From: Halanaeroarchaeum sp. HSR-CO | Lineage (GTDB): Archaea > Halobacteriota > Halobacteria > Halobacteriales > Halobacteriaceae | Reading direction: 5' to 3' | Assembly: GCF_024972755.1 (NCBI RefSeq) | Contig: NZ_CP087724.1 | Coordinates: 620,001 to 684,000, forward strand | Length of the DNA stretch: 64,000 nt | In this document: positions 34,092 to 36,584 of the stretch, piece after piece | Layout of the letters: every line of letters begins with the position of its first letter | Numbering within the stretch: position 1 is the stretch's first letter | The notes under the pieces: generated by a model | Database searches by the model: none | The model's input: the letters and a program-made list of their open reading frames with translations, nothing else | What the model was told of the DNA's origin: nothing | Program-made: the position numbers and the translations under genes

Positions 34092-34274
34092 TCAGCCGAA
34101 GGTCACTGAGGAGGCGTCTTCGAAGGGGACGGCCCGCATCTGCTTGGGATACGTGATGCGAACGAATCCCGGTCGCTGACTCGCTTCTACGACCGGTTGG
34201 ACGCCTGCTGGCACGTCGAAGTGATCGCCGGGGCGAACGAGTTCCGTGACGAGCCGATATGTATCGGTAGTCAT
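34092..34274 (-). CDS. Small protein of unknown function (60 residues)
   Basis: ATG at 34274, stop at 34092. The sequence TYRLVTELVRPGDHFDVPAGVQPVVEAS... GFVRITYPKQMRAVPFEDAS looks like a compact beta-barrel-like domain and has coding-like composition, with no signal or membrane segment. A TATA-like ACCTTATCG lies on the minus strand about 45-50 bases upstream of the ATG, and a perfect hairpin-forming repeat lies beyond it at 34339-34371. Not recognised. Confidence 0.5.
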   Translation of the reverse strand: MTTDTYRLVTELVRPGDHFDVPAGVQPVVEASQRPGFVRITYPKQMRAVPFEDASSVTFG

Positions 34275-34518: not shown

Positions 34519-34529
34519 GGGGGGGGGGG
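34519..34529. repeat. Run of eleven G downstream of Hsp20 gene
   Basis: The 11-G run ends nine bases before the Hsp20 stop codon region (34539) and would be a C run in that transcript. It is preceded by the A-rich CAAAAAATATGG patch at about 34494. Confidence 0.8.
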
Positions 34530-34538
34530 TGCGGTCAG

Positions 34539-35060
34539 CTACTGGAATCCGATCTCGTGGCGCTGATTTTGCTCGTCTTTCGGGATGATGATGTTACAGA
34601 CGCCGTTTTCGTGTTTCGCTACAACCTGCTCCGGATCGATCTGCATCGGCAGCGGAATCGTGCGTTCCACTCTGAGCGGTCGTTCGGAGAGTACCAGTTG
34701 CTCGTCGCTGGTATCCCCGACGGGTTCTTCGTGGCGGTCGCCGCTCACGTGTAACGTGTTCCCGTCGGCGTGGATTTCCAGGTGTTTCTCCTCGAAGCCA
34801 GGTGTATCGACGTACACCACGAGTTCGTCCGGGGAATCGACGATGTCCACGAGCGGAACTGCTGGTGGGACGTACTGCATCGCCGATTCGGCCGTCGCGG
34901 ATTCGCTCGTCACGCTACCGTAACGCGGTTGCTGGACGGTACCGGGAGTCGTCGACGCCATCGACGGTCCGATGGCCGATGTCGATTGGGCGGTCGTCGT
35001 TCCCGTCTGTTCGTAGCCGGAATACCGTGGATCCTGTTGCCAGTTCGGATTCCACGTCAT
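34539..35060 (-). CDS. Hsp20/alpha-crystallin family chaperone with low-complexity N-terminus
   Basis: 173 residues from the ATG at 35060, which overlaps the upstream gene's stop as ATGA; the frame itself is open to 35135. The alpha-crystallin domain spans about 70-165: PLVDIVDSPDELVVYVDTPGF, HLEIHADGNTLHVSGDRHEE, SERPLRVERTIPLP and the final GVCNIIIPK, the I-x-I-like strand motif. The N-terminal 65 residues are Gln/Ser/Thr-rich (NPNWQQDPRYSGYEQTGTTT) and resemble the start of the Gln-rich protein encoded upstream. It is a holdase-type small heat-shock protein; the unusual tail may match its operon partner. Confidence 0.9.
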   Translation of the reverse strand: MTWNPNWQQDPRYSGYEQTGTTTAQSTSAIGPSMASTTPGTVQQPRYGSVTSESATAESAMQYVPPAVPLVDIVDSPDELVVYVDTPGFEEKHLEIHADGNTLHVSGDRHEEPVGDTSDEQLVLSERPLRVERTIPLPMQIDPEQVVAKHENGVCNIIIPKDEQNQRHEIGFQ

Positions 35061-35881
35061 TGGTGGCTGATTGGCTGGAGCGTGCTGGGTTGCTGGCCGA
35101 TTTGCGGTCTTGTGGCCTGGAACGGGGAACTCCACTGTCCGGTCGCCGACAGCTGTTGACCGCCGACGAACGGGGCGAGTTGTGGGAGATACTGCGCCAG
35201 TTGGTCACCGGTCATCCCGAGGCGCCTCGCGAGAACCTCCGCGATGACCGGCGTCTCGGCCATTTCGACGGCCTGGCGAGTCGGCATCTCCTGTGCCCGT
35301 GGCTGGGCTTGCCGTTCGAACGCTTGGCCGGCCCCGTACTGACCGAACTCGCCCGGGCGCTGTGTGAACTGCGGATTCATCGCGGATGGCTGTTGACTCG
35401 CGTGTCCTTGTTCGGACCATCCCACTACTGGCGCCTGCTGGATGGGCTGCTGGCCCTGCACTGGCGCCTGCTGGATAGGCTGCTGGCCCTGCACCGGGGT
35501 TTGGTGTGCTTGCTGCGGTCCAAACGCTTGCTCCTGCTGTTGGGGGGCCGTCGCCCATTGGTCGGGCAGCTGTGACTGCGTCGACGCCTGGCGGGACGGT
35601 TGCTGGCGCTGGATCGGTGCTTGCTGAGCGGCCGGCTGTGTCGGCGTCGATTGTCGTTGCGGGAGGTATTCGGTCGAGGTCTGCTGGGGACGCGCTTCCA
35701 GTGTCGACACCATTCGTTGCTGCGGCGGTGACTGGGTCGCGAACTGGGGCGTCTGCTGGCTGAGCGATTGTTCTCGAGTCGGTGGCTGTTGGCCGAGCGG
35801 TACCTGCTGTGGGTTCGGCTGTGTGCCCGACTGTTCGAATCCCGATAGCGGTGGCTGCTGGCCTGGCATTTGCTCGTACAT
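35057..35881 (-). CDS. Glutamine-rich low-complexity protein in operon with Hsp20
   Basis: 274 residues from the ATG at 35881; the open frame starts at a GTG at 35965 but the 28 extra codons look non-native. The protein is dominated by Gln, Pro, Ser, Thr and Ala, with few acidic residues, which is very unusual for a haloarchaeon. It begins MPGQQPPLSGFEQSGT, contains tandem PVQGQQPIQQA units (about 125-155) and ends with a more structured segment (about 205-250: TPVIAEVLARRLGMTGDQLAQYLPQLAPFVGG). The stop overlaps the Hsp20 start by 4 bases. It resembles a disordered, self-associating protein of prion-like composition. A TATA-like TTTATC lies about 50 bases upstream (near 35932). Not recognised; function unknown. 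Confidence 0.75.
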   Translation of the reverse strand: MYEQMPGQQPPLSGFEQSGTQPNPQQVPLGQQPPTREQSLSQQTPQFATQSPPQQRMVSTLEARPQQTSTEYLPQRQSTPTQPAAQQAPIQRQQPSRQASTQSQLPDQWATAPQQQEQAFGPQQAHQTPVQGQQPIQQAPVQGQQPIQQAPVVGWSEQGHASQQPSAMNPQFTQRPGEFGQYGAGQAFERQAQPRAQEMPTRQAVEMAETPVIAEVLARRLGMTGDQLAQYLPQLAPFVGGQQLSATGQWSSPFQATRPQIGQQPSTLQPISHQ

Positions 35882-36584
35882 TGGTCGTCTGTCCCGGGGT
35901 ACGGGACGCTTGTTCACAGGACTGGACGAGTGATAAACACTGACCGTTGTTTTGCCCAAAATCACGGGTTAGAGCACTTCTATCCCGGGAATAATGGGTT
36001 TGAAACGATTTCTTACAGTCCCAATTCGGACCGCAACCGGTCACCATTCCTTGGAAAGCGGCGGTCGCCTCGTGGCCGCCGGCCTGCCGCTCGGTATGAT
36101 TCGCTTAGCGTTCCTCCGATAGCTGGTGTGGGGGAGACGTCGGTCGGGACCCCGTGAGAAACAGTTGGTAGGCGCGGTATTGTGGCGGGAGCACTGGTTC
36201 CGAGTCCACGGTTCCTCGCTGTTCTTCACGCCTGTGCATGCGGTACCCCGATAGTGCTCAGATTCTCTGCGACGCGCTCGTGGACTGGTCTCGTGGTGCT
36301 GGGGACGGTCGGTACGGGGTCGTCGTGGAAGGTGGCCGAACGATGAACTGCCGAACGGGATGAACAACCCGTTCGCGCCGTTCCGGTGGATCGGGTCCTG
36401 AACGCGGACTGCATCTCCGTCGGTCCGCTGGACAGGAGGACCAATTCGAACTCTTTTGTTGGAACCGACGGCGGCGGGGTGGGGAAGCTCCGATGTCGCG
36501 GAGACGCCCGATCGGCTCGACCAGTTCGACCACGGGTCGACGTGACCGAGAAATGAACGTGGGAGAGACCGACGATTCGGGCTC
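35882..36584. other. Gene-poor 700-base region
   Basis: No convincing gene. The open frames present are Arg/Ser/Pro-rich and lack the acidic bias and codon pattern of real genes here. The left end (35930-36000) is A/T-richer and holds the promoter of the Gln-rich/Hsp20 operon. The rest may be a decayed remnant; nothing recognisable is left. Confidence 0.45.

Follow-up and report, generated by a model that had tools for sequence, protein, structure and literature searches.

On the minus strand of the window, by which we mean the whole 64-kb stretch of DNA analysed, a gene for a Gln/Pro-rich, low-charge protein of predicted disorder of 274 amino acids (35057..35881) is directly followed by the gene for a small heat-shock protein of 173 amino acids (34539..35060). 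The original prediction paired the two, and the pairing holds: they occur together in the Halobacteriaceae as well as in further families of the order, and form a single chain in four genomes, which makes a dedicated Hsp20-plus-Gln-rich unit well supported by comparative sequence analysis. Extreme halophiles as a rule have very acidic proteins, and one would not expect, in a molar-KCl cytosol, a conserved uncharged Gln-rich protein linked to a single chaperone clade. We propose that the unit is a conserved haloarchaeal stress module, in which a disordered Gln-rich matrix and an Hsp20 dedicated to it would act as a split sequestrase, a proposal whose chances we consider evenly balanced.

The Gln-rich protein consists of 26% glutamine and 14% proline, with 0.7% asparagine, 5.5% aspartate plus glutamate and 4.7% arginine plus lysine (about 10% charged residues), and so does run against the acidic haloarchaeal bias, as had been claimed. 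Its glutamine content is beyond chance; counted from stop to stop the frame reaches 23%, as compared to 6.8% for the runner-up among the 251 open reading frames of at least 120 amino acids in the 64-kb window. The PVQGQQPIQQA repeats of the original prediction trace back to a 33-bp tandem repeat (35427..35494, minus strand; 2.1 copies, 97% match). Searches of Pfam and NCBIfam with the whole protein gave no match. By comparison with relatives the frame is under purifying selection, with dN/dS values of 0.21, 0.36 and 0.66 and an excess of synonymous change in the named Gln frame that is absent from, or much smaller in, the shifted frames (three species pairs). Across 20 Gln-rich members glutamine makes up 22-52% and charged residues 3-16%, and the members are mostly Pro-rich, Asn-poor and low in aromatics.

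Disorder, too, is borne out by prediction. An AF2 model based on a four-sequence alignment has a mean pLDDT of 48.8 and is disordered except for residues 210-235, where two helices (210-221 and 225-235) form the sole well-conserved stretch of the protein. The protein had also been called prion-like, a term that is only partly apt: it is Q-rich, low in charge and disordered in the model like the Q/N-rich yeast-type prion domains, but because it is Pro-rich and Asn-poor it departs from their Pro-poor, Asn-containing composition. Its composition and predicted disorder make it plausible that the Gln-rich protein self-assembles or condenses. High hydrophilicity, low charge and disorder in AF2 would also suit a soluble hydrophilin- or LEA-like protein that acts as a disordered shield beside the Hsp20 and keeps clients apart with no condensate being formed. 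Hydrophilins are defined by a GRAVY below -1 and a glycine content above 6%; the window protein is a borderline case (GRAVY -1.00, 6.9% Gly), and 11 of the 20 members satisfy both. The rise at low salt of hsp1, the probable counterpart in Halobacterium sp. NRC-1 (PMC1971269), would fit such a shield as well. The other nine members, however, fall outside the definition, the constant residue is Gln and not Gly, and the conserved terminal helices and the fusion to Hsp20 suggest a specific assembly, so that we regard a shield as rather unlikely.

The evidence for a dedicated unit comes from the distribution of the two genes. When the Gln-rich protein was used as query, two relatives came up (L007 and L008), each followed by an Hsp20 gene in ATGA overlap. 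A profile built from the Hsp20s of the window and these two loci reached 14 genomes of the order (E of 1e-25 or lower), and all 11 new loci, picked by Hsp20 score alone, have a Gln-rich open reading frame directly upstream on the same strand (22-46% Gln from stop to stop; the frame at L012 shows 126 amino acids before the contig ends). A broader profile (A4) shows 25 of the 392 Halobacteriales genomes to carry either the pair (21 genomes) or a single protein with a Gln-rich N-terminus on the Hsp20 (four genomes; L039, L040, L045 and L048), which is a lower bound, as a subfamily defined by starting from the window may miss distant members. The highest glutamine content in any 80-residue window of same-strand open reading frames is 29-71% at these 25 loci versus 5-12% at 19 other haloarchaeal Hsp20 loci, four of them from the window's own genome (L051 and L107 among the entries denote one and the same locus), and these 19 loci have neither a Gln-rich upstream gene nor a fused Gln-rich N-terminus. 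The four weakest Hsp20 matches inspected (L050-L053) likewise lack a Gln-rich partner, and no member was found in 295 genomes of the phylum outside the Halobacteriales at 1e-25 or in the viral contigs searched.

In the window the two genes share an ATGA stop/start overlap suggestive of translational coupling (35057..35060, minus strand; ATG at 35060-35058, TGA at 35059-35057), with the TGA of the Gln-rich gene lying on the ATG of the Hsp20 gene as had been predicted. The same overlap is found in the Halobacterium relatives and in L019, and spacing ranges from an overlap of a few bases to a gap of under 20 nt. An expanded CAG-type repeat that sits before an ordinary Hsp20 gene, kept by linkage and with no joint function, might give rise to low-complexity, fast-diverging sequence that contains a short tandem repeat, and identity is indeed no more than 36-44% even within the family. 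Yet it would hardly account for one Hsp20 clade across several families, four fusions, purifying selection and near-overlapping genes; conservation has largely refuted this explanation already and we consider it highly improbable. The distribution of the pair is patchy, as it is missing from the window's congener (G001) and from five of the 13 Halobacterium genomes searched and present in the other eight, which suggests loss or transfer. In Halobaculum the pair is plasmid-borne and annotated as 'hypothetical protein' and Hsp20. In Halobaculum magnesiiphilum a TnpB-family gene lies just downstream of the plasmid pair (L060), and mobility of this copy is possible.

The Hsp20 of the unit stands apart from its haloarchaeal relatives. 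It belongs to Pfam family PF00011 (E 3.9e-13; 49.8 bits versus a cut-off of 20.8) and matches small heat-shock proteins in the PDB (best E 1.5e-10), but scores below the cut-offs of the archaeal equivalogs of NCBIfam (NF041799 and NF041800; 75 versus 100 bits and 51.7 versus 140 bits). Its alpha-crystallin domain (residues 72-168; 34557..34847, minus strand) carries a GVC signature with C155 and is followed by a C-terminal HEIGFQ. GVC or GMC is present in 23 of the 25 partnered or fused Hsp20s and in none of 19 other haloarchaeal Hsp20s, the usual small heat-shock protein signature at this site being GVL. Compared with the I-x-I/V anchor motif of small heat-shock proteins, the C-terminal motif of the subfamily is IGF or IAF in the Halobacteriaceae and IGI/IGV or IRV/ITV in the other members. 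The Hsp20 of the window is like the ordinary haloarchaeal and archaeal Hsp20/Hsp14 proteins in having an alpha-crystallin domain above the Pfam cut-off, and different from them in its equivalog scores, in GVC for GVL, in the IxF C-terminus and in the Gln-rich partner. A tree built from 40 alpha-crystallin domains unites every partnered or fused Hsp20 with L047 in one clade (100/99), and the 20 Hsp20s of tandem pairs cluster together (93/94). L047 (G006:C2) is itself a fusion, in which the Hsp20 is joined to an E/R/P-rich repeat (EAEPRREPRARRAPRY) and not to a Gln-rich stretch. C155 is near-invariant, and genes for FAD oxidoreductases or a peroxiredoxin lie nearby in Halobacterium and Halobaculum (L023-L025, L059-L061); a redox link of this cysteine is possible. 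Just past the Hsp20 stop codon the window has a run of eleven G (34519-34529).

The N-terminal arm of the Hsp20 (residues 1-66; 34863..35060, minus strand) is of low complexity and in composition like the partner. Pooled over the 14 Hsp20s of alignment A4, the arms contain 15.7% glutamine and 5.3% aspartate plus glutamate as opposed to 23.9% aspartate plus glutamate in the alpha-crystallin domains, and on account of this low-charge, Q/P-rich composition the arm resembles the Gln-rich protein rather than the rest of its own chain. A shared N-terminal motif had been proposed to drive contact between the two proteins. In the window the likeness is real: SGFEQSGT in the Gln-rich protein (35822..35845, minus strand) and SGYEQTGT in the Hsp20 arm (34998..35021, minus strand) agree in 18 of 24 bases, and only 4 of 5000 shuffles gave a match as good. 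However, SG[FY]EQ[ST]GT is confined to the window and missing from all 19 orthologous Gln-rich proteins checked, and therefore is not a contact motif. The Gln-rich copy, incompletely conserved, belongs to a wider N-terminal motif, QQPxLSxxEQ, of the Halobacteriaceae, and the Hsp20 copy is window-specific.

Outside the short C-terminal helices the Gln-rich sequence is poorly conserved. The helix pair (VEMAETPVIAEVLARRLGMTGDQLAQYLPQL; 35162..35275, minus strand), recovered in alignments A1, A3 and A8, is found in the Halobacteriaceae, whereas the partners of the Halobaculum group (L041, L042, L043, L044, L046 and L049) have in common a C-terminal helical domain of about 100 amino acids (ERKLILRQSPFAESFRQ...), which has no Pfam family. 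Since the C-terminal part thus differs between lineages, its role may differ as well. Known domains considered for the Gln-rich C-terminus, namely DprA_WH, PKS_DE, UBA_6, FlgN and DUF445, gave sub-threshold and inconsistent Pfam matches and were discarded. Alternatively, the Gln-rich protein might be an effector that acts through its C-terminal helices, for example in binding DNA or protein, and the Hsp20 might merely keep an aggregation-prone partner soluble. The helix pair has a weak, sub-threshold resemblance to helix-turn-helix domains, the helical domain is conserved within the Halobaculum group, and the gene order places the putative effector first. Then again, all domain matches lie below the curated cut-offs and do not agree with each other, some Gln-rich members (L013, L014 and L020) are without the helix motif, and in the fusions the Gln-rich stretch sits on the chaperone itself. 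We believe that an effector role of this kind is quite unlikely.

Expression data bearing on the unit come from Halobacterium, which comprises the relatives of the window within the Halobacteriaceae. In H. salinarum DSM 3754 (L025) the order is the same, Gln-rich gene, Hsp20 gene and a gene for a 60-residue protein described below, and carB lies 5-6 kb from the Hsp20 gene. In the NRC-1 numbering carB is VNG1814 and hsp1 is VNG1801 (PMC1971269); a 139-residue protein encoded between carB and the Hsp20 gene of DSM 3754 (15.81 kDa, pI 4.29) fits Vng1807H, and the next Hsp20 gene on the contig is 22 kb off on the other side. Going by gene order, the pair is almost certainly the VNG1802-hsp1 operon of Halobacterium sp. 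NRC-1. In its passages on hsp1, a 2007 study lists vng1801-1802 as co-regulated, gives a decrease of hsp1 of 10.3-fold in a tbpD mutant and 15.8-fold in a tfbA mutant, both of which are heat-sensitive, and describes VNG1802 as having no homology to any characterised gene (PMC2121645). Low salinity raises hsp1 2.25-fold (PMC1971269), and heat raises sHsp-1 and sHsp-2 more than 2-fold (PMC1475562). At the protein level the assignment is ambiguous, as the full-length Hsp20 has a mass of 18.54 kDa here, which equals the 18.53 kDa of sHsp-2 and not the 14.15 kDa listed for sHsp-1 (PMC1475562). The operon and its link to heat had thus been noted before; the richness in Gln, the conservation, the fusions, the clade and the third gene go unmentioned in those passages of the 2007 account (PMC2121645). 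We found no earlier report of the Gln-rich/Hsp20 pair in the open-access papers searched.

What, then, would such a module do in the cell? We suggest that weak Gln/Pro contacts would let the Gln-rich protein self-associate into a matrix in the KCl-rich cytosol, that the Hsp20 would dock into it through its similar N-terminal arm and hold unfolding clients by its alpha-crystallin domain, and that clients would in this way be gathered reversibly during stress. The tandem or fused arrangement, the near-overlapping genes, the single Hsp20 clade, the matching arms and the coding constraint on both frames argue for a stress module, as do the heat and low-salt responses and the co-regulation published for the probable orthologue in H. 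salinarum. Against it stand the Pro-rich, Asn-poor composition, the patchy distribution, the weak conservation outside the helices and the lineage-specific C-terminus. A precedent of similar design exists in yeast, where the prion-like N-terminal region of Hsp42 promotes sequestration (PMC13287201). As in Hsp42, where a low-complexity prion-like region works with an alpha-crystallin domain under stress, four haloarchaeal relatives have both parts on one chain; in the window, and mostly elsewhere, the parts are separate genes, and the system is Pro-rich and archaeal. The resemblance is architectural, a likeness of design. More tentatively, and with somewhat less than an even chance of being right, the unit may be an archaeal split sequestrase of independent origin from Hsp42, with salt- and heat-tuned Gln-rich condensates, docking of the Hsp20 by its like-with-like arm and possibly a cysteine sensitive to redox state and the small third protein as additional parts. 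If this is true, archaea gain a dedicated protein-collecting condensate, alpha-crystallin domains were coupled to low-complexity regions on more than one occasion, and the operon noted in 2007 without a function is accounted for. With both split and fused versions occurring in nature, what the low-complexity part does can be tested directly in the genetically tractable H. salinarum.

The third gene, which was overlooked by the original prediction, follows the Hsp20 gene (34092..34274, minus strand) and encodes a conserved 60-residue protein of predicted beta-strands (YRLVTELVRPGD...VRITYPK). Its profile has 17 strong matches in 384 genomes, of which 16 adjoin an Hsp20 of the subfamily; three further, weak matches away from Hsp20 were treated as chance. 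The gene accompanies most of the partnered and fused set; the Halobaculum group and most of the fusions gave no match to it. The remaining strong match is a second copy in G025 (L081; G025:C9:5787-5969) with no pair within 1.5 kb. The AF2 model of the protein shows three strands (pLDDT 84), and the protein matched no Pfam or NCBIfam family and no PDB entry significantly, by Foldseek or by sequence. Halobacterium and G284, a genome from another family, have a DUF6149 gene (PF19646) downstream of the 60-residue gene (L023, L024, L025, L008 and L038), which makes a four-gene neighbourhood there; the DUF6149 gene is not beside the window's copy.

Finally, a TTTATC box lies 56 nt before the ATG of the Gln-rich gene (35932..35937, minus strand), a position that is conserved in Halobacterium. 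The Halobacterium loci have in common, upstream of the Gln-rich gene, TGAAYTC-N3-TGAACTATC or TGAAYTC-N3-TGAACTATCGG together with TTTATC/T near -56, and the upstream region in the window keeps the TTTATC part only. The form TGAAYTC-N3-TGAACTATCGG (L009-L017; G118:C1:788405-788435) repeats directly with a period of about one helical turn and lies shortly before TTTATC/T; in G118, which belongs to another family, the closely similar box has its TTTAT at -73. A wider regulon was looked for and rejected, as matches are essentially confined to the Gln-rich/Hsp20 operon: in a search of ten genomes at 0-1 mismatch, six have one site each, and only at this operon. The box looks like the site of a dedicated regulator.
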